A stretch of DNA of 60,162 bases from the IMG/VR virus record IMGVR_UViG_3300042879_001019, positions 1-60,162 of that record. One strand, written 5' to 3'. How positions within the stretch are numbered: the first letter of the stretch is position 1; each line of letters starts with the position of its first letter. The position numbers were made by a program, and so were the translations under genes. Source of the DNA: a virus. The notes under the pieces were generated by a model. The model was not told the origin of the DNA, did not search any database, and worked only from the letters and a program-made list of their open reading frames with translations. Positions 18,361-49,377 of this stretch are shown here, in pieces.

Positions 18361-21300
18361 ATGCCAAATAATTTACCGTCACCAAATCAGATACTAGGAA
18401 ACAATTCTAGAACACCAAATCAACAGGTTGAAAACAATTCTAACTTACCAACTCCTGATGAAGTTTTAGGAAAATCTGCATTAAAAAAAAAAGAGGTTTC
18501 ACAATCAACACAAGACGATGGAGTTACTTCTTTGGATGGATCAAACAAGGAGAAAAAGAAGCAATCGGTATCTTCAAATCAGCAAGGTAAATACTCTCTG
18601 CCTGGTGAATATTTAGATTATCCTGGTAAAGGTATTCGTAGATACTATAATGGTAAGTGGTATGATTATAGTTTTACCGAAACGAAGAATGGTAAAGACT
18701 TAAGTGTTTATGATGTACAAATTACAGATCCAGTTAGAGTAAATACATTAAATAAAAAATTTAATAAAGTTGGATCTACATCCGAAACGGAAGAAGTGTT
18801 TACTGGTTTTCCAGGGCAAGAAAAAAATGAATATAGAATAATTGAAGACAAGTGGCAAAAAAAAATGCCAGGCATGAATAAATTTAGGATTGTTACTAAT
18901 GAAGGATCTATACAATCATTAAATAAGGAATTCAATAAAAATGTATCAATACCATCTAATCTAGAAGATTTAAAGAAAAAGCAAGATCAAGAAATACAAA
19001 GTGATAAAAAATTAAACTCTTCATTGACTTGGGTTAATTCTGGGTTGATAGGATCTGAAGAAGAAAATGCATCCAAAATACTTAAGCAAAAATTCCCTGG
19101 TTTTGAATTTATAAAACAAGGTCCTTTAACAGATGAGTTATTAGTTATTGCTCCAAATGGTGCTAGAACAAATATAAGTTTAGATAATTGGACAGATGAA
19201 GATGACAGAAATCAAAGTGTAGTACTAAGAGAATTTATAAGAAATAACTCAGATCAAGATTTAGCAAAAACAGCAAAAGAATTAAGTTTAAAAGAATCTC
19301 AAGAAAGAACATTCTTGGAAGATAAAAAGAAACAAAGTTTAGAAGCTGGTATTTTATCACAAGATTGGAAATTTGAAAATGGCAAGTTAACTATAGAAAC
19401 ACCACTAGACAAAGCAAAGAAATCTGAAGAGTTTAAAAGAATTCAATCTGAAACAAAAACTGCCAGAGGAGAATATATGTCTGAAAAAGCAGAACAGTTT
19501 GATGATATCTACTATAGATTTAAAAATAATCCTAATAAGAATGATGAAATGATTGCTGCGTATGCAAGTGTAAAAGCAGACAAGCAAGAAATATCTAGAG
19601 TTAACAATTATGTCAATGATGTAAAAAATGTAAGCAATGACGTAGCTAAAGAAAAGTTAAATATTGAAAATTATGCTAATGATATAATTTCTAAAGTACA
19701 AAGTGGAGAGATATCACAACAAGAATTTGATGATATTTATAGACCAGAGATAGACCAGAAAACAAATGATTTAAATGAGAAATATAAAAATCTATCAAAT
19801 GATTTAAAAAATATTTCAACAGTTGATAAATCAATAAATGAATCAGTAGGTAAAAATTATTTAATTAAAGAAGCGACAGGTAGTGTAATTGGAGGGGTTA
19901 CATCTAAATTTATAAAAGGATTTACATATTTACCAAGACTTGCTTCTATGGGCGAGATGTCATCAGCAGATCAAGAGGAAATAGTAAATTTAATTACTGG
20001 TGGAGGTACTACAAAAGAGTACATGGAATCTGAAAAAAGAAATGATCTTACTAAGGCATTATTTAGTATGTCAGAATCTGTTGGTATCCTTACATCAAGT
20101 TCATTATTAGGAGGTGGCGCAGCTGCTTATCCATCTTTCTATGCTCAGTCATATTATGAGATGAAGGATGAATTAGATAAGATTGAAGGAATGAGCGAAA
20201 AAGAAAAAGTTTTGTTATCTGGATCTTATGGTGTTGTTAGTTCACTTCTAGAAAAATTTGGTATTGATTCCGCTATGCAGAAAACAGCAGTAGGTAAAAA
20301 TCTTACTAATAGTATAATGAAATCTGCTTTTTCTGATTTACCAAAAAATGCATCTAAGGAGTTTATTGATGCTGCTATAATGAACAGCTTTAAAAAATAT
20401 GTTGTTAAATCAGGAGTTCAAGCAGCAATTGGTGCAGGAACAGAGGGGATAACAGAAGCATTGCAGAATTTATCTGGTGTTGCTATTAAAGAAGTTTACG
20501 ATCAAGCAAAAGGAACTGAATACTTTAATAATAAGTCAGCGTGGAATATATTAGGTGATGCTGTTTATGAAGGCTATCTAGGTGCTTTAGGAGGTGGAAT
20601 TATGTCAACTGTAACTAGTTCAAAAGATATAGTTGCTAGAGGACTTAGAGCTACATTGAATAAAGAACAAATAGATGCATTAATAAATTCAGCAAAAGTT
20701 GATGGAGTAAATGAAGCCTTAATTACAAATTTAAAATCAAGTATATTAACTGGTAAAATGACAAAAGATGAGGCCAAAGAAATAAGCGAATCTTTTAACT
20801 TAGTGAAATCAAAACTGGAATCATTGCCAGAAGATATGTCTAATGAAGATAAATCTGTATCTTTAGATTTATTAATAGAAAGAGACAAATTACAAAAAGA
20901 AAGTTCTAGATTAGATGAAGCATTAAGAGCTCCATATAACGAGAGAATAACAGAGATAAATAATGAACTATTAAAAATATCAGAAAATGCCGTTCAAAAG
21001 CAAACAACAGGTGAAGTTCCTGTACAGCCAGAAGCCACAATTGGCGGAGAAATGGAGGAAGGAAAGCCCCAAGCAGAACCTCAAGGCGTTACCGAAGAAG
21101 GTCAAGTCGCTGCCAAAGAAGAAGTAGATCAGTATATTGCTAATATGGGGGCAGAAGCTCGTATTGGCTCAACCATTAATCCTATCATGGATAAGATGTC
21201 AAATGCTGAATATATTAATGACAATGACATTGATAACGCTATTGAGAAAATTTTTAACGAGGTAGATAGTTTAGATAAGTCAGATTATAGTGCTGAGACA

Positions 21301-24300
21301 AAAGCAGCTTTATCTGAAAAACTTTTAAATATTGCCGAAAAACTAGACAATTATGAATTTAGAACAAAGACTGAAACTGTCGCAACTACCAAAGCAGGCA
21401 CAGCTACAAGTGCTAGAAGGACTTCTGAAGCAGTCCAAAAAATCACAGCCGAAAAATACTTCAATGGAGTCAATGCCACAGTCAATGGCCAAGAAGTAAC
21501 CCTTGTTGATAGAAATGGGCGTGTAGAAGCAACTATGCCTAATGGTGATGTTGTTGTCTTGGATACTCCAACAATGCAGATAGCTGAAGATGGATTTGAG
21601 TTTGATGATAACGATGCATTAGTTGCGGTTAATATAACAGATCGATTAGGAAACAAGACAAGAATTACTGGAGATCAGGCTCTTGACTTTGCAATTCGTG
21701 ATAGAGAAAATAAGATTGGAGTTGTTGAGCAAGCTGACTTTGATACAGTATATCAAGAAGTAGAAAGAAGGTATGTCAAAGAAGCTCCTAAGAAAAAAGT
21801 AGAGAAGGAAGCACCTGTAATTACTGAAAAAGCTGAACCAGTAGATGTAGAAGATGAGGTAAAAAAATTAGAGGAGTTATTAAAAAGAGATGATCCTAAC
21901 TTCCAACTTGACTCTGAGATAACTCAAGAAGAAAAGAAGGAAGAACTTGTATCTAAGGCTATAGAAAAGATGTCCGAATCAGATATAAATGATATATCTG
22001 AAGAAGCATTTGATGCTGAGTTTCCTACACCTGATGTAAAGACATATGCTATTGAAGTAAAAGAAAATTCAGAGCTAGCTAATAAGTTAAAACGAATGGG
22101 TTTAAAAGACTTAATTGGTAAGAAGATAAACTTAGTAATGGCTGATCAACTTAAAGTTGGAGAAGTAATGGGCAAGAAAAGAATGGGCGGTCCATTCTTC
22201 CCATTAATTGATAAACTTTTCGGCAAAGTTGCATGGGCTTCTATTAATAAGACAGCTGCAAAAGCAATAGTTAATGGAGCTATAAAGTCTGATTATACGG
22301 TTGTGTATAATATGAATCCATCTGCAATAGATTCAAATGCTGCTATAACAGAAACATTTGAAGATTTAATGCAATCATTACCGAAGAATAAACAAAAAGC
22401 AATATTCACTGCTATTCAAGAACAAGTACTAAAAAATAAGTACGCTAATAAGACAGATCAAGTAAGAGCTATAGCTAAATCATCAAAGACATTAAGTGAG
22501 TTCTTTACTGAGTTAGATAAGTTAGATGTTGATACAATATCGGCTGTAGTTAAGAATATAATGCCATCAAGAGATGTTGATGCAGGTACAAAAATAGGAA
22601 AGCTTTTACAGAACGAAGGAATAACTATAGAGACTATTCGTGAAATGAATGTAGAGCAGTTCGCATCTGAATTACCTGCTGGTGCATTGACAATGGTATT
22701 AGAAGTTACAGATAAAGCAGGCAATAAGGTAACAGCAAAAACAGCTGATGAAGCAATAATTACTCCAGAACAACAAGATGAAGAGGGATTACCTAAACAT
22801 AATAACTATCCAATATATGTAAGAGGAAAGGCTGTCGCTATGCTTAATGAAACTGTCCCTTTTTGGAACATATTAAAAGAGTCTATAAATAATATAAATG
22901 TAAAGGTAGCTGGAATTGTAAGAGAAAAATCTGGAAGAAGATTAACATCAAAAGAAGCAATTTCAAACGAGATGAGAAGTGCTTCAATGACTGCTAGTGT
23001 AGCTAAGAAAGCAATAGAAAAAACAAATACACAGTATAACAGATTCTTATCAACAATCGCTAGATCATTTCCAAATGTAGAGGTAGTGGCATCTCAGGAA
23101 GAGTTTGATGCATTACTAAAAGACTTAAATACTAAGAAGTTATCTACAAAGAATGCTAAAGTATATGGTGCTGTTTATAAAGGCAAATTATATTTGAATC
23201 CATCACTAGAAAACTATAATACACCAGTACATGAGTTTGGTCACGTATGGATAAATACTGCTAAGGTTGCATCTAAACAACTATATAGTAAGGGTATATC
23301 ATTAGTTAAAGGTACTGAGTACGAAAATAACGTAAGAGAAAATAAGGAGTACCAAAGAGTCATAAAACAAATGAAGGCAGATGGTGCTTCAGATGTAGAT
23401 ATAGATAACTACATATATGAAGAGGCATTGGCCACTGCTATTGGAGATAAGGGAGAGTCATTTGTTACAGCGTCACAGAGATTAGACTTTAAGAACTGGA
23501 TGAGAAAACTATTCTCATTTGTTAAGTCCATGACAGGTATATCTAAGTACAGTGCTGAGCAATTAGAAGATATCAATTTAGATGAGTTTGTTCAAGCTGT
23601 GTCTATAGATATAATGTCTGGCACAGAACTATTTAAAGGTGTAAAGACAAATATATCTGATGCTCTTCAGTTAATGACAAATGGAAGTAAGAGTATAGAG
23701 TATATTATGTCTGTAGCCAGAGACAATGGTATATCAGATGCAGGTATAAAGAAATATTTGACGAATCAAGGATTCAGTGAGCAAGCTATAAATGATGCAT
23801 TTAAAGCACAACCTAAAGCTCCGTCAGTTGCTAAGGTATTAGGTAAGCCAAAACCAAAACAGGTAACTGTTAATGAGATGTCAGCACTTAAAGATCAGAT
23901 TAGATTTGAAGCAAAAGCTGCTCGTGATGCTAAGGGTGACTTGAATACTAAAAGAAGAGCTCTTGCTGATGCTATTGGTGGTATGGTTAAGACTGGCAAA
24001 ATTAAAGCTCCTCAGGCTGCTACACTCGTTAACAGAATAAGCAATCTTAACTTAGATAATCCAGTAATGGTTGAGCGATTCGTCAACTATGCTGAGAGAG
24101 TCTTTGAGAGAGCTGAATATCAAGAAACACTAAATAAAGCATTTGAAACAAGAAAGTCCATCCGTAAAGCATTAAAGACTGACAACCAGCCTGAGGTAGT
24201 GGGTATGGCCAAGGAGTTTACAAAGATTGATCCATCAATGGTTGAGGACATAGATGCTTATATTGAAATGGCTGAAAAAGTTAAAAATGCTGTTAAGCCA

Positions 24301-27300
24301 TCTGTTGCAAAAATACCTAATCCTATTCTTAAACAAGCAGCTAATATTGCTGATATTTCTGAATATTCTAAAAAAGAAATCGAACGTCAAGAACAAATTA
24401 AGGCAGATGAATTTTTTGCTGCTTATAATGAAGTTGAAGGCTTGTCAAAAGACATGTCTTTAAAAGAAATGAAAGACATAATAAACTCATTGAAAGAAGA
24501 TCCAGAAGCTGAGCCTAATAAGCAAGAAAAAGTAATGGAGTTCCTGAAAGAAAAAATGTCAGAAATGTCAGATACTTTGAAGTCAATGTTCAAAACAGGC
24601 ATTGATCCAATGACTGGTGAAAAAATTACATTTGATGAAAAACAAAAAGAACTAATCAAGCGAGCATTAAAGATTGACCTTAATGAAATTTCAATCAGAG
24701 AGGCGATTAAGATAGTTGAAAGTATTGATAATTTCTTAACCAATCAGATAACAAGTGGACTTGAGGCAGCTGTTAGTTCTTATGAAGGAGCAATGAATGA
24801 TAAGCAGTTAGTTCAAAAAGGTTTTAAGGCTAAAAGTCTAAAATTCTTGAGAAGCGGAAAAATAGGAAGAGGATACACTGAGCAACTGTTCTCACTTCCA
24901 CTTATGATTGAAAAAATGTTTGGTGGTATAAACAGATCAGTCGAAGTAATGAATAAGTGGGGATTAAGTAAATTAATTAATGGTGTAAATAAAGCCAATA
25001 AGCAATTCAGTACCATTGTTGATTCATATACAAAACAACCATTTTATTCTACAAAAAATTCCCTTGGGGTCTATGTTATGAATAAAGGATTTATGGATGC
25101 TAAAAATGTATATGAAAGAGGTATGCTTGCATTCTTGAAAAGAAATCTGATTGGAACTCAAGCTGAAATGAAAGCAGAATTTGAGAGAAGAACTAGAATG
25201 ATAAAAGAATCAATCGATGTTCTAATTCAAGATGGAAACTCCAAAGAGAAGAAAATGGGTGAATTGTATAAAGAAATATATGACAAACTAAATATTGCAT
25301 CAATGGACATGGATGTAATTAATTCCAATGCATCAAAAAATAATTTAGATGCTATTAATTGGTGGGTAAATCAATGGTCGAAACATTACTCAGATTTATC
25401 TGACATAAGTTTGTCTGTATATAATACTCAGCTTGGAAGTGACTTAAACTATACACCTGATAAGTACAAAAAACTATCTTCAGAAAAAGTAAAATTTGAT
25501 AAAGAAGCAGTAGAGAGGAATGGATCTTTTGCTATATCTATTGATTATACTGACAAAAATAAATCAGGTGTATTAATAGAATCAACTAGACCAGGCGCAT
25601 TGCCAAATGGCAGATATGTAAGTCTTGATTTTGATACTAATAATGCAAAAGCATTAAAGTCTGCACTAACTGATATCAATACTGCTTCAGCTATTAGACA
25701 GATTGATGGATTCATGAGTTCTAATTCATTCAAGCAATTAATTCCTGATTCAGATGATAGAAAAATAATTACTAGAAGAATCAATACGTATATAAGAAGA
25801 GCGAAAGGTAAAAATATTGTGCCATCTGATACAATGCAAGATGTTGAGAGATTTGGAAACTTTATAACTGCTCTTGGTGTAGGTAAGGCATTAGGAGGTG
25901 TAAGTCAAGCTGTAACTCAGACAGTACCAGTTATGCTTAACACTGTTGTAAATGCAGGTCGATTTGATGTTGCTGGCGCTGAATTTAACGCATGGTTAGA
26001 TGATTTAGGCGTGTCTACGTCAAATCGTGGATTAGAATCACAATCAACAGTTGAATCAATTGATAGACAACTAGAAGCGTCAAATGGTAATACACAAAAA
26101 ATAATAAAAGGAGTTGAAAATTTAAGTCAATTTTATTTAAAGCAATTTCTTTCAAGACCAGATATATTTGTCGCTAGATCTTCATTTAAGTCATACTACT
26201 TGCAAAACTTAAAGCGTAGAGGAATAAGTACAGATATTGATTGGAAGACACACAAACCAGACATGGAGGCTGTTGAATATGCAGAAGCAATGGTTAATAG
26301 ACAGCAGAACGTATCTGATCCATTGTTGGCAGGTGAATTTTTAGCTAGCGATGAACCTATGCGAAAAATAAGTAGAAAGGCTGCATTTCCATTTGCTTCA
26401 TTTATTTTAAATCAAAAAGCAAGGATGTACAATGACTTTAGTACATTGGCTAGTGCTACTTCAACAAATGAAGATAAAATAGCAGCAGGTAGATCTTTGG
26501 CAGGTCTTGCAGTTGAATTACTTGCATTTCAATTAATTGGTTTCGGAATAAGAAGATTATATGATTCAATTGCAGCTTCATTACTTGGGGATGACGAAGA
26601 GGAAGAAAAAAATAAGAAAATATTCGGTATTAAAATGACTTCAAGAATGTACAACGCTACTAAATATCCAATTAAAAATATTTTTAATGATATTGTATCG
26701 CCTTTTCCTGGAATGACTGATAAATATGTAACATGGGGCTTGAATGAGGCATTATCTTATTATCCTTGGATGGATAATAAAGAAGTAAAAGATGCTGTAA
26801 AAGAAAGAAATAGAATACTAGAGCTAAAAGGTGAAGATCCAATGGATGCTAAAACTGAAGCTGAATTTATCAAGAATGTGAAAGATGAAGCAACATACCA
26901 ATTATTTGAAGATGAGAATGATAGAAGTGGAGGTATGTACGGGATAGCTTCAGCTACATATAACGAACTATTTGATATTTCAAAATTATCTATAACAGGT
27001 GAATTCATTGATGATTATCAAGGTAGAGAAACCACTAAAAGACTTTTAGAGTCTGATCGCGAAAAAGTAAAATACGCTGTTCCTTTTATGATAGCTTACT
27101 CAACTGGATTATTACCTAAAGATGTAGGAACTATTAGCAATAACTACATAAAAAGAATAAAGAAACAAGCCGTTACTGAAAAACAATACGACAGATACGA
27201 TGCTGTACAGAAAGACCTTGGGCGTAATCTAAAATCTTGGGAAATACAATTGGTGAAAGATAAGAAGGAATCCGAAACAGCCATTTCCGAAATAGAGTTT

Positions 27301-27435
27301 ATCGAACGAAATGGTGGATTGACAGAACGTCAAGGAAGAGAGTACTTAAAAATTATGAAGGCTATAGGTGAGCCAACTGTTTCAGATATAGTGAAAATTA
27401 AGGAAGGTCAGACAGCTGATCAGATTTTAAAATAA
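18361..27435 (+). CDS. Giant internal/ejected virion protein with metallopeptidase-like motif
   Basis: 3024 residues, the largest gene here. Order: disordered N-terminus with peptides NLPSPNQILG/NLPTPDEVLG; helical coils; a hydrophobic region about 500-760 (VGILTSSSLLGGGAAAYPSF and others); Glu-rich linkers; a zinc-peptidase-like HEFGH with downstream YEEALATAIGDKGE (about residues 1620-1700), matching HExxH plus a third Glu; long coiled coils; a C-terminal segment with TVPVMLNTVVNAG and a membrane-like stretch near LAVELLAFQLIGFGIRRL. The size, position and mixed domains match phage 'polyvalent' proteins ejected with the genome. I see no polymerase motif, so it is not obviously a virion RNA polymerase. 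Confidence 0.8.
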   Translation: MPNNLPSPNQILGNNSRTPNQQVENNSNLPTPDEVLGKSALKKKEVSQSTQDDGVTSLDGSNKEKKKQSVSSNQQGKYSLPGEYLDYPGKGIRRYYNGKWYDYSFTETKNGKDLSVYDVQITDPVRVNTLNKKFNKVGSTSETEEVFTGFPGQEKNEYRIIEDKWQKKMPGMNKFRIVTNEGSIQSLNKEFNKNVSIPSNLEDLKKKQDQEIQSDKKLNSSLTWVNSGLIGSEEENASKILKQKFPGFEFIKQGPLTDELLVIAPNGARTNISLDNWTDEDDRNQSVVLREFIRNNSDQDLAKTAKELSLKESQERTFLEDKKKQSLEAGILSQDWKFENGKLTIETPLDKAKKSEEFKRIQSETKTARGEYMSEKAEQFDDIYYRFKNNPNKNDEMIAAYASVKADKQEISRVNNYVNDVKNVSNDVAKEKLNIENYANDIISKVQSGEISQQEFDDIYRPEIDQKTNDLNEKYKNLSNDLKNISTVDKSINESVGKNYLIKEATGSVIGGVTSKFIKGFTYLPRLASMGEMSSADQEEIVNLITGGGTTKEYMESEKRNDLTKALFSMSESVGILTSSSLLGGGAAAYPSFYAQSYYEMKDELDKIEGMSEKEKVLLSGSYGVVSSLLEKFGIDSAMQKTAVGKNLTNSIMKSAFSDLPKNASKEFIDAAIMNSFKKYVVKSGVQAAIGAGTEGITEALQNLSGVAIKEVYDQAKGTEYFNNKSAWNILGDAVYEGYLGALGGGIMSTVTSSKDIVARGLRATLNKEQIDALINSAKVDGVNEALITNLKSSILTGKMTKDEAKEISESFNLVKSKLESLPEDMSNEDKSVSLDLLIERDKLQKESSRLDEALRAPYNERITEINNELLKISENAVQKQTTGEVPVQPEATIGGEMEEGKPQAEPQGVTEEGQVAAKEEVDQYIANMGAEARIGSTINPIMDKMSNAEYINDNDIDNAIEKIFNEVDSLDKSDYSAETKAALSEKLLNIAEKLDNYEFRTKTETVATTKAGTATSARRTSEAVQKITAEKYFNGVNATVNGQEVTLVDRNGRVEATMPNGDVVVLDTPTMQIAEDGFEFDDNDALVAVNITDRLGNKTRITGDQALDFAIRDRENKIGVVEQADFDTVYQEVERRYVKEAPKKKVEKEAPVITEKAEPVDVEDEVKKLEELLKRDDPNFQLDSEITQEEKKEELVSKAIEKMSESDINDISEEAFDAEFPTPDVKTYAIEVKENSELANKLKRMGLKDLIGKKINLVMADQLKVGEVMGKKRMGGPFFPLIDKLFGKVAWASINKTAAKAIVNGAIKSDYTVVYNMNPSAIDSNAAITETFEDLMQSLPKNKQKAIFTAIQEQVLKNKYANKTDQVRAIAKSSKTLSEFFTELDKLDVDTISAVVKNIMPSRDVDAGTKIGKLLQNEGITIETIREMNVEQFASELPAGALTMVLEVTDKAGNKVTAKTADEAIITPEQQDEEGLPKHNNYPIYVRGKAVAMLNETVPFWNILKESINNINVKVAGIVREKSGRRLTSKEAISNEMRSASMTASVAKKAIEKTNTQYNRFLSTIARSFPNVEVVASQEEFDALLKDLNTKKLSTKNAKVYGAVYKGKLYLNPSLENYNTPVHEFGHVWINTAKVASKQLYSKGISLVKGTEYENNVRENKEYQRVIKQMKADGASDVDIDNYIYEEALATAIGDKGESFVTASQRLDFKNWMRKLFSFVKSMTGISKYSAEQLEDINLDEFVQAVSIDIMSGTELFKGVKTNISDALQLMTNGSKSIEYIMSVARDNGISDAGIKKYLTNQGFSEQAINDAFKAQPKAPSVAKVLGKPKPKQVTVNEMSALKDQIRFEAKAARDAKGDLNTKRRALADAIGGMVKTGKIKAPQAATLVNRISNLNLDNPVMVERFVNYAERVFERAEYQETLNKAFETRKSIRKALKTDNQPEVVGMAKEFTKIDPSMVEDIDAYIEMAEKVKNAVKPSVAKIPNPILKQAANIADISEYSKKEIERQEQIKADEFFAAYNEVEGLSKDMSLKEMKDIINSLKEDPEAEPNKQEKVMEFLKEKMSEMSDTLKSMFKTGIDPMTGEKITFDEKQKELIKRALKIDLNEISIREAIKIVESIDNFLTNQITSGLEAAVSSYEGAMNDKQLVQKGFKAKSLKFLRSGKIGRGYTEQLFSLPLMIEKMFGGINRSVEVMNKWGLSKLINGVNKANKQFSTIVDSYTKQPFYSTKNSLGVYVMNKGFMDAKNVYERGMLAFLKRNLIGTQAEMKAEFERRTRMIKESIDVLIQDGNSKEKKMGELYKEIYDKLNIASMDMDVINSNASKNNLDAINWWVNQWSKHYSDLSDISLSVYNTQLGSDLNYTPDKYKKLSSEKVKFDKEAVERNGSFAISIDYTDKNKSGVLIESTRPGALPNGRYVSLDFDTNNAKALKSALTDINTASAIRQIDGFMSSNSFKQLIPDSDDRKIITRRINTYIRRAKGKNIVPSDTMQDVERFGNFITALGVGKALGGVSQAVTQTVPVMLNTVVNAGRFDVAGAEFNAWLDDLGVSTSNRGLESQSTVESIDRQLEASNGNTQKIIKGVENLSQFYLKQFLSRPDIFVARSSFKSYYLQNLKRRGISTDIDWKTHKPDMEAVEYAEAMVNRQQNVSDPLLAGEFLASDEPMRKISRKAAFPFASFILNQKARMYNDFSTLASATSTNEDKIAAGRSLAGLAVELLAFQLIGFGIRRLYDSIAASLLGDDEEEEKNKKIFGIKMTSRMYNATKYPIKNIFNDIVSPFPGMTDKYVTWGLNEALSYYPWMDNKEVKDAVKERNRILELKGEDPMDAKTEAEFIKNVKDEATYQLFEDENDRSGGMYGIASATYNELFDISKLSITGEFIDDYQGRETTKRLLESDREKVKYAVPFMIAYSTGLLPKDVGTISNNYIKRIKKQAVTEKQYDRYDAVQKDLGRNLKSWEIQLVKDKKESETAISEIEFIERNGGLTERQGREYLKIMKAIGEPTVSDIVKIKEGQTADQILK

Positions 27436-47090: not shown

Positions 47091-47798
47091 TTAATGATTT
47101 AAAATGTAAATTGATTTGTTTGATTTTGTCCCTAGTGTACCACTACATAAACCACATTTGCTACATGTAGATTTGAATCCTGCTTCCTTGCTTGCAGGAC
47201 AATTGACAATTCCATCTAGCTTTGATTCTGTAGCAATGTAACTTCTATATCCTTTCATCCTTGCGATAATCTCTCCGTTGATGTCATGTGTAGATGCCAT
47301 GAAGAATTTACTCAAATCGTTACGCATCCATTGATGTGTATATCCAGTCCAATTATCCGCGACATTTGTCATCTCTTCAATCATCTTAATTGGATGTAAT
47401 GATGGCTCACCATACGTTCCGAATCGAACGAATGTTCCTTGTGCCATCTCTCTTGCCTGAAGAATCATATCATACTTAAATGTTGGTACATTTTCAAATG
47501 TTCCGAATTCCTTTGCAATACTTTTTAGCATGCTGATAAACCCAACATACTGATTGAATTTATGCGTATAACATTTTCCGAATTCATTGAATGGACAATC
47601 TAAACAATTTGTATCAGCATTACTGAAGAAAGTCTTCATGCCATCATTCGTTACGTTCACAATCAATTCGTATTGCTTTCTGCTAAATGTGTACGTTTGG
47701 ACAATTTTTCTTTTCTTGTCTGATTCAATCTTATTGTTGCTAGTGGTTGACTTGCTTATTACTTGCAATGTGTCTCCGATTCTGAATACTAATTTCAT
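47091..47798 (-). CDS. Cysteine-rich phage protein (DUF7227-like)
   Basis: 235 residues. CLDCPFNEFGKCYTHKFNQY, VRFGTYGEPSLHP, NWTGYTHQWM and a C-terminal CPASKEAGFKSTCSKCGLCS make two Cys clusters. I recall this pattern as DUF7227, found in phages and bacteria; the clusters suggest a metal or Fe-S site. Function unknown. Its mRNA leader is the 3' product of hammerhead ribozyme 1, which would leave a 19-nt 5' UTR. Start context TAGTCATG. Confidence 0.72.
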   Translation of the reverse strand: MKLVFRIGDTLQVISKSTTSNNKIESDKKRKIVQTYTFSRKQYELIVNVTNDGMKTFFSNADTNCLDCPFNEFGKCYTHKFNQYVGFISMLKSIAKEFGTFENVPTFKYDMILQAREMAQGTFVRFGTYGEPSLHPIKMIEEMTNVADNWTGYTHQWMRNDLSKFFMASTHDINGEIIARMKGYRSYIATESKLDGIVNCPASKEAGFKSTCSKCGLCSGTLGTKSNKSIYILNH

Positions 47799-47811
47799 GA
47801 CTAATTGTTTT

Positions 47812-47867
47812 GGTTAATATGCCGTATCACTACGGCATTTCGTCTATTTAAGACTCATCAGTTAACC
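47812..47867 (-). ncRNA. Type I hammerhead ribozyme 1
   Basis: Minus strand, 5' to 3': stem I GGTTAA (47867-47862); core CTGATGA (47861-47855); stem II GTC (47854-47852), loop TTAAATA, GAC (47844-47842); core GAAA (47841-47838, last A pairs in stem III); stem III ATGCCGTA (47838-47831) with TACGGCAT (47826-47819) around TCAC; cleavage nucleotide H17 = A (47818); stem I TTAACC (47817-47812). Every invariant hammerhead base is present (CUGANGA, GAA, A15.1-U16.1, G10.1-C11.1). Predicted cut lies between 47818 and 47817, 19 nt before the ATG at 47798. The CTGA contains the TGA stop of the upstream gene. Confidence 0.93.
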
Positions 47868-48100
47868 TGTTTTAAAAGTTTTTCGTATTTCTTTGGCAAT
47901 TTGTTATACATTCTTATTGTATGTCCACTACTCCAATGATTCAAGAATACTTCCTGTATTATGGTTGATTTTAATCCGTTACCTATACAAATTGTCGTTC
48001 CGTAGCCTAAACATCCCTCAATGACTTCTATTATTTCGCCATCTTTTTTAATGTAGTTATCAATTACATCTTGAACTACTTTGTTTGTGTATATTTTCAT
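47858..48100 (-). CDS. Small hypothetical protein (80 residues)
   Basis: MKIYTNKVVQDVIDNYIKKD ... LPKKYEKLLKQVN. A small alpha/beta protein, no motif. Its last codons and TGA stop are the 5' stem I and CUGA core of hammerhead 1, so ribosomes finishing this gene would disrupt the ribozyme. Confidence 0.62.
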   Translation of the reverse strand: MKIYTNKVVQDVIDNYIKKDGEIIEVIEGCLGYGTTICIGNGLKSTIIQEVFLNHWSSGHTIRMYNKLPKKYEKLLKQVN

Positions 48101-49018: not shown

Positions 49019-49129
49019 CTATCTATTGTTAAATGGTATTAATACTTTTCTTGTTTTAATTAACGTTCCGTTTAAAAAGAATCCCCAAATTTCGAAACGT
49101 CCATCAATCTTTAAAATTTTTGTTGACAT
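49019..49129 (-). CDS. Small basic protein (36 residues)
   Basis: MSTKILKIDGRFEIWGFFLN then GTLIKTRKVLIPFNNR. It is the first ORF on the RNA released by hammerhead 2, with a 22-nt leader ending TAGCCATG. Function unknown. Confidence 0.58.
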   Translation of the reverse strand: MSTKILKIDGRFEIWGFFLNGTLIKTRKVLIPFNNR

Positions 49130-49145
49130 GGCTAAAAATTTAATT

Positions 49146-49200
49146 GGTTAAGACGTGACTAAACGTCACGTTTCGTCTATTTAAGACTCTTCAGTTAACC
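49146..49200 (-). ncRNA. Type I hammerhead ribozyme 2
   Basis: Minus strand, 5' to 3': stem I GGTTAA (49200-49195); core CTGAAGA (49194-49188); stem II GTC (49187-49185), loop TTAAATA, GAC (49177-49175); GAAA (49174-49171); stem III ACGTGAC (49171-49165) with GTCACGT (49159-49153) around GTTTA; H17 = C (49152), giving the classic GUC cleavage triplet; stem I TTAACC (49151-49146). Stem I, core and stem II match copy 1 except for the variable core position N7, while stem III is a different perfect helix. Predicted cut between 49152 and 49151, 22 nt before the ATG at 49129. The TAA stop of the upstream gene is inside GGTTAA. Confidence 0.94.
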
Positions 49201-49377
49201 TTTTTTAATCGAGAATAAAATGCTTGATAACATCGCAATTGCGCCACATCCGTAGAATAGTGTAGCAATCAAATACTCATGTTGAATCATCAAGCTTTCA
49301 TTGTTAAAACTAACAATTGGTGTAGCGATTGCCGTACTACCGAATGCAATCATCATTACTAAAAACATTGTTTTCAT
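49195..49377 (-). CDS. Small membrane/exported protein (60 residues)
   Basis: A hydrophobic signal (MKTMFLVMMIAFGSTAIATP) and a second membrane segment (YLIATLFYGCGAIAMLSSIL) ending KKG. It is the first gene of the minus operon after the long non-coding region; a three-way-junction hairpin (49401-49448) ends 23 nt before its TAGCCATG start. Confidence 0.62.
   Translation of the reverse strand: MKTMFLVMMIAFGSTAIATPIVSFNNESLMIQHEYLIATLFYGCGAIAMLSSILFSIKKG

Follow-up and report, generated by a model that had tools for sequence, protein, structure and literature searches.

A predicted type I hammerhead ribozyme between phage genes belongs to a subfamily placed between stop and start codons

A hammerhead at the boundary of two small genes

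For the window, which is the whole stretch of 60,162 nt analysed here (IMG/VR virus record IMGVR_UViG_3300042879_001019), the motif at 47812-47867 on the minus strand (copy 1) is predicted to be a functional type I hammerhead ribozyme that cuts the operon RNA of the phage into mRNAs of one gene each whose 5'-OH ends are uniform, and a probability of about 0.8 is given to this reading. An active ribozyme appears by far the best reading of copy 1 because all three stems covary in relatives, loop II and stem I are predicted to be in contact, a second copy is present in the window, and orthologous loci carry a hammerhead at the same boundary. The features of copy 1 and its neighbouring genes are as follows.

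47812-47867, minus strand: hammerhead copy 1, whole motif, type I, open at stem I (sequence, fold, covariance model R1)
47862-47867, minus strand: stem I 5' strand GGUUAA, partner 47812-47817 (sequence)
47855-47861, minus strand: catalytic core CUGAUGA (C3-A9), containing the UGA stop of the upstream ORF
47842-47854, minus strand: stem II hairpin GUCU(UAAAU)AGAC (fold; compensated variation in orthologue L249)
47839-47841, minus strand: core GAA (G12 A13 A14), followed by A15.1 at 47838
47819-47838, minus strand: stem III hairpin AUGCCGUA(GUGA)UACGGCAU, A15.1-U16.1 included (fold)
47817-47818, minus strand: predicted cleavage site, between A17 (47818) and U1.1 (47817), placed by core position
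47812-47817, minus strand: stem I 3' strand UUAACC, with which the downstream mRNA is predicted to begin
47868, minus strand: A at -1, flanking stem I, predicted to touch U47850, the first base of loop II (covariation in relatives)
47811, minus strand: A at +1, flanking stem I, predicted to touch U47846, the last base of loop II (covariation in relatives)
47799-47817, minus strand: 19-nt leader of the downstream mRNA after the predicted cleavage (sequence)
47858-48100, minus strand: upstream ORF, 80 aa, stop codon within the copy 1 core
47091-47798, minus strand: downstream gene, 235 aa, Cys-rich, PHROG 2554 (function unknown)

On the minus strand copy 1 reads GGUUAA-CUGAUGA-GUCU(UAAAU)AGAC-GAA-A.UGCCGUA(GUGA)UACGGCA.U-A/UUAACC (loops in brackets, slash at the predicted cut), with 6 bp in stem I, 4 bp and a 5-nt loop in stem II, and 8 bp in stem III including A15.1-U16.1. 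The core nucleotides, A15.1-U16.1 and H17, which structurally define a type I hammerhead, are complete in both window copies, and the MFE fold of copy 1 has the helix order I-II-III-I, open at stem I. The hammerhead was the MFE fold of the 56-mer (-17.3 kcal/mol, z -3.8) and also that of copy 1 in 101 nt of context. The upstream ORF terminates at the core UGA (C-UGA-UGA), and copy 1 thus overlaps its stop codon; family searches with this ORF gave no match. A search for an intrinsic terminator on the minus strand at copy 1 found none.

A preliminary description, made from the letters alone, had listed a stem I GGTTAA/TTAACC, CTGATGA, GAAA and an A at the cleavage position, in correct order and with no mismatch; all of these are present on the minus strand, stem I is fully paired over 6 bp, and the perfect type I core and three stems fold accordingly. 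Its 8-bp stem III is right when A15.1-U16.1 is counted in, its cut between 47818 and 47817 agrees with the core position, and 19 nt do separate that cut from the ATG at 47798. Two of its details needed revision: the bases given for stem II (GTC/GAC) are there, but the stem has 4 bp with a 5-nt loop and not 3 bp; and the downstream gene, called a Cys-rich DUF7227-like gene, is Cys-rich, but its DUF7227 hit (E 0.019) reached 15 bits, short of the cut-off of 27, and the real match is PHROG 2554 (1.4e-28).

The second hammerhead, absent from that description, was detected by searching the whole record with the copy 1 region, and is located 1.3 kb upstream of copy 1 on the transcript. Its features are as follows.

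49146-49200, minus strand: hammerhead copy 2, GGUUAA CUGAAGA GUCU(UAAAU)AGAC GAA ACGUGAC(GUUUA)GUCACGU C/UUAACC (sequence, model R1)
49130-49151, minus strand: copy 2 leader, 22 nt (sequence)
49019-49129, minus strand: short ORF after copy 2, MSTKILKIDGRFEIWG..., 36 aa (the same gene follows hammerheads in L248 and L252)
49195-49377, minus strand: ORF upstream of copy 2, 60 aa, terminating at the UAA with which the stem I 5' strand ends

In their 5' part the two copies are 95% identical over 38 nt; stem III of copy 2 differs from that of copy 1, yet full pairing is retained. A terminator-like match at copy 2 was on the plus strand and was rejected, being the stem III hairpin of copy 2 itself.

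Comparison with chance and with RNA family models

With a parser for complete hammerheads, two were found in the real 60-kb window, compared with two in total in 200 dinucleotide shuffles. A chance origin was ruled out by these window shuffles and by the shuffled-flank control on the IMG/VR matches given below.

At the gathering threshold, Rfam gave no match for either window copy. In a permissive scan, RF03152 (RAGATH-1-hammerhead) scored 30.1 bits for copy 1 and 28.8 bits for copy 2, short of its cut-off of 56.3, and RF00163 (Hammerhead_1) scored 14.4 and 26.3 bits, short of its cut-off of 34. Both copies are thus below the Rfam thresholds, and on the strength of this library alone they would have been discarded. 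A custom covariance model, R1, was built from hammerheads of other phages, with both window copies outside the training set; it scored 59.7 bits (E 6e-13) for copy 1 and 66.3 bits (E 1e-14) for copy 2. The covariance-model search that the preliminary description had proposed as a check therefore failed at the curated Rfam threshold and clearly succeeded with the subfamily model. In 18 loci, model R1 detects 63 copies, part of which belonged to its training set, and two of these pass in Rfam RF00163. If true, most of this hammerhead family has been overlooked by curated RNA libraries.

The window copies share the core and the type I topology with RF00163, but score below its cut-off. The core of RF03152, the best Rfam match, is similar; however, its stem II is a single pair and it includes a further hairpin upstream, whereas here stem II has 4 bp, the alignments show 4 inserted bases in the stem II region, and the fold has no such upstream hairpin. 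Membership in RAGATH-1 was ruled out by score and architecture.

Conservation and covariation in other phages

To find relatives, a search pattern was used that consisted of the core and three stem II pairs only, leaving stems I and III free. It matched at least 120 IMG/VR stretches, and among the matches listed, 110 of 124 distinct ones were complete hammerheads, compared with 45 of 2700 (1.7%) in the shuffled-flank control. The parser added 66 nearby copies outside the search pattern in 41 loci. All three stems covary in the relatives: among the 34 members of equal length from which R1 was built, both sides had changed in 12 of 16 pairs, and the covariation score was 0.769 (shuffled, 0.145; slid registers, at most 0.092). 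The percentage of paired positions is no evidence here because the 34 members were selected as fully paired; the covariation remains evidence. In 178 distinct copies, stem I was exactly 6 bp in 160, and position 17 was C in 162 and A in 16. The highest copy number in whole records was 14 within one 40-kb contig.

In cellular genomes the same pattern gave complete hammerheads in 6 of 28 distinct matches, most of them in one phage-like contig, and in one bacterial family 2 of 151 genomes carried a hammerhead copy; a cellular origin was rejected, the pattern matches in cellular genome contigs being mostly chance. One contig binned with an Aliivibrio MAG (JAAGZR010000219.1, L195) holds 8-9 hammerheads in 5.8 kb; no other contig of that genome had matches, and this one is probably a misbinned phage. 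Megablast of the hammerhead-rich loci L098, L195 and L013 against phage isolates gave no match. A 35-bit match in AP013540 was not accepted, as its stem III is unpaired. An identical 33-nt stem III loop was observed in L108 (position 1075, plus strand) and L251 (position 3197, plus strand), with different downstream genes.

Loop II mostly begins and ends with U (U...U), and the nucleotides immediately outside stem I are then A/A. This holds for the window copies, and A/A flanks were found in 134 of 135 copies with a 5-nt U...U loop. Where the loop ends have changed, the flanks have changed as well: A...A loops occur with U/U flanks, G...A tetraloops with C/U (or U/U), and U...A loops mostly with A/U. 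When one case was counted per contig and state, by which shared ancestry is reduced, not removed, the -1 flank and the first loop II base formed a standard pair in 112 of 112 cases and the +1 flank and the last loop II base in 101 of 112, and none of 5000 shuffles was as high for either. For 62 copies outside the search pattern, these pairings were found in 62 and 58 copies, respectively. The crossed pairings (-1/last and +1/first) were likewise above shuffles. In 26 informative cases with other loops, the fractions were 100% for -1/first, 62% for +1/last, 35% for -1/last and 81% for +1/first, indicating that the -1/first contact is firm and the partner of +1 is less certain.

The covariation of the stem I flanks with loop II implies a tertiary contact. 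Contacts between loop II and stem I matter for fast hammerheads, many of which have short pseudoknots (PMC3088659), and the contact predicted here from covarying bases is what is looked for in a fast-cleaving type I hammerhead. In the open-access papers searched, no earlier description of this particular two-base loop II/stem I contact was found. Across the wider family, the comparisons argue for strong purifying selection on the structure and on the loop contact.

Position and orientation relative to genes

In 43 loci with more than one copy (131 copies in total), no locus has copies on both strands. An ATG-started ORF of at least 40 aa begins within 120 nt downstream in 170 of 189 cases (33 of 189 on the antisense side), and the leader from cut to start has a median of 24 nt, with 19-27 nt in 102 of 163. 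The leaders in the window, 19 and 22 nt, place each ribozyme directly upstream of a start codon with a short uniform leader, as in RiboJ. This recurrence of orientation and short leader across the phage family supports the predicted cutting of a polycistronic mRNA upstream of the downstream gene. On the other side, the stop codon of the upstream ORF overlaps the ribozyme in 127 of 177 cases; these are mostly a UAA ending the stem I 5' strand, the core UGA, or a stop whose last letter is the first base of stem I.

Such an arrangement might serve a regulator, in which a terminating upstream ribosome or another signal blocks folding, so that cleavage reports low translation and alters downstream expression; the 127 overlapping stops, the core UGA of copy 1 among them, would fit it. 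Stop overlap, however, is expected from tight phage gene packing alone, neither an additional conserved domain nor an alternative fold was observed, and the downstream genes are mostly unrelated between phages, with 159 ORFs (median 77 aa) spread over 130 families, by which a conserved downstream gene function was also rejected. Regulation of this kind is considered improbable. The downstream ORFs named by PHROG include N4-like RNA polymerase, DNA ligase, MazG and an anti-restriction protein.

In the window, many minus-strand genes between 45860 and 49377 have the start context TAG(C/T)C-ATG (starts at 49377, 49129, 49016, 48616, 47798, 46813, 46051 and 45860), and some of these TAGs resemble an upstream stop. 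Elsewhere in the window, a plus-strand ORF of 3024 aa (18361-27435) is probably a very large virion protein.

Variation among related loci

The source of the window is a Flavobacterium-type phage; its terminase is closest to that of MW202828 (73%, uncultured), followed by Maribacter phage Panino and the Flavobacterium elemo phages (44%). With model R1, no hammerhead copy was found in MW202828 and Panino, and one was found in elemoE. The elemo hammerhead stretch is carried by 68 cultured elemo isolates on Flavobacterium sp. BAL314. The elemo ribozyme was missed by the stringent parser because of one A.A mismatch in its stem III and was recovered by the covariance model. Its stem II is GACU/AGUC in elemoE, GGUU/AACC in elemoA (double compensation) and GACU/AACC in elemoF (two mismatches), and elemoE and elemoF are therefore a natural test pair for stem II. 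The elemo gene gp65 (NC_055854.1, 16289-16396, plus strand; L245) is annotated antisense across the hammerhead and is probably not a real gene.

At loci orthologous to copy 1, the ribozyme is kept in L249 and L250 (downstream gene 94%), with the same stem III and a different but compensated stem II, and in L251 (downstream gene 92%), with stem II mismatched at two positions. No ribozyme precedes the orthologue of the downstream gene in L248, L252 and the 67% group; in L248 and L252 one precedes the orthologue of the short gene after copy 2. The gene starting at 49377 on the minus strand of the window (MKTMFLVMM...) follows a hammerhead in its L251 orthologue and not in the window, where a GC-rich hairpin persists near the leader; this suggests a gain or loss of the ribozyme.

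The patchy occurrence in close relatives (L248 and L252 at the downstream gene; MW202828 and Panino) speaks against the preferred reading of an active ribozyme that processes operon RNA, as do the Rfam scores below the cut-offs. Together with the broken stem II variants of L251 and elemoF, which indicate that loss is tolerated, this patchiness would be consistent with a relic or a neutral passenger, with little or no cutting in the cell. Both window copies are perfect, however, and the selection on structure and loop contact described above would not be expected of a relic, which we regard as quite improbable.

The gene content around the ribozymes also varies. Upstream of a shared downstream gene, the window, L249 and L251 each have a different gene, and strong homology to the shared gene starts at the ribozyme. 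Four locus pairs differ by one gene inserted between two ribozymes, i.e., upstream gene-ribozyme-downstream gene in one phage and upstream gene-ribozyme-extra gene-ribozyme-downstream gene in another. These cases, together with the near-identity of the window copies, would suit a ribozyme that cuts but whose main role is homologous recombination at near-identical cores, by which genes are swapped or lost, RNA processing being secondary. On the other hand, phages also recombine at boundaries without ribozymes, and compensatory changes preserve the structure where identity is lost, which recombination alone would not require; as the main role, recombination is judged unlikely. A tentative possibility, which would be a widespread strategy of phages, combines it with RNA processing: the operons may be interchangeable cassettes split by hammerhead insulators, each gene receiving its own mRNA with a standard 5'-OH leader regardless of neighbouring genes, and the same sites serving as seams for gene exchange. 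Separate travel of the ribozyme halves with the upstream and downstream genes was also considered; the similarity data gave no clear separation, and it is not claimed.

Religation was considered as well, in which the ribozyme or a ligase rejoins the cut ends and the sites serve RNA shuffling or circle formation. Stem I sequences are identical within many phages, which would permit an exchange of halves, but they differ within others (L013, L098), and no spliced or circular products were obtained from the other phage hammerheads that have been tested (PMC3088659). Religation is thus very improbable.

Discussion

From structure, conservation, placement and orientation, which were established by comparison, we infer cleavage, its products and an effect on expression. 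During transcription, the RNA would fold into the 6-bp open stem I and the hairpins of stems II and III, with the ends of loop II touching the nucleotides just outside stem I, and the minus-strand operon RNA would be cut after A47818. The upstream message would carry two stable hairpins and a terminal 2',3'-cyclic phosphate, ending about 40 nt past its stop codon; the downstream message would begin with 5'-OH-UUAACC, 19 nt ahead of its AUG. Copy 2 would act likewise 1.3 kb upstream. A long phage transcript would in this way become single-gene or few-gene mRNAs with standard short leaders, the expression of each gene would be isolated from that of its neighbours, and decay pathways needing a 5' phosphate would be avoided. 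In E. coli, decay by RppH/RNase E starts from a 5' phosphate. Two points speak against this mechanism: stem I is short and AU-rich, and a ribosome that terminates within the core might interfere with folding.

That hammerheads flank genes in phages has been on record since 2011 (Perreault et al. 2011, PMC3088659), when their role as operon splitters was proposed; clusters of them cleaved efficiently in vitro, and one also in E. coli (PMC3088659). As in those clusters, where types I-III occur, the hammerheads here flank single genes or small blocks and processing of long transcripts is proposed. Unlike them, the present hammerheads form a type I subfamily in which stem I has 6 bp, loop II is U...U and the flanks covary; they overlap the stop codon, precede the next start by about 24 nt, are often present in many copies per genome, and occur mostly in free phages. 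Against the open-access papers searched, this compact stem I, the loop contact, the fit between stop and start, and the copy number look new. The theta (HDV-like) ribozymes of gut phages (PMC10879173) are also self-cleaving elements in phage genomes, but belong to a different class and are tRNA-linked.

A parallel in position is RiboJ, a synthetic-biology insulator and likewise a self-cutting hammerhead directly upstream of the ribosome-binding region giving a uniform 5' end, which here is predicted (PMC6206723, PMC7536230); besides standardising 5' ends, it roughly doubles the mRNA level (PMC6206723). RiboJ, however, was derived by engineering from a ribozyme of a plant satellite RNA, and its cut is followed by an added 23-nt hairpin, which is not found here.

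What hammerheads do in bacteria and phages is described as unsettled (PMC6155905). The consistent placement within the subfamily makes the insulator reading specific and testable. The context is unusually clear, with a fixed stop-start position, one orientation, many copies per genome and cassettes between copies, and this context, together with the 68 cultured elemo isolates and their natural stem II variants, makes the role directly testable. The hammerheads described here belong to a large, little-noticed family in phages, whose members probably cut long messages into separate, uniformly started single-gene messages, and if this is true, nature uses hammerheads where synthetic biologists put RiboJ.
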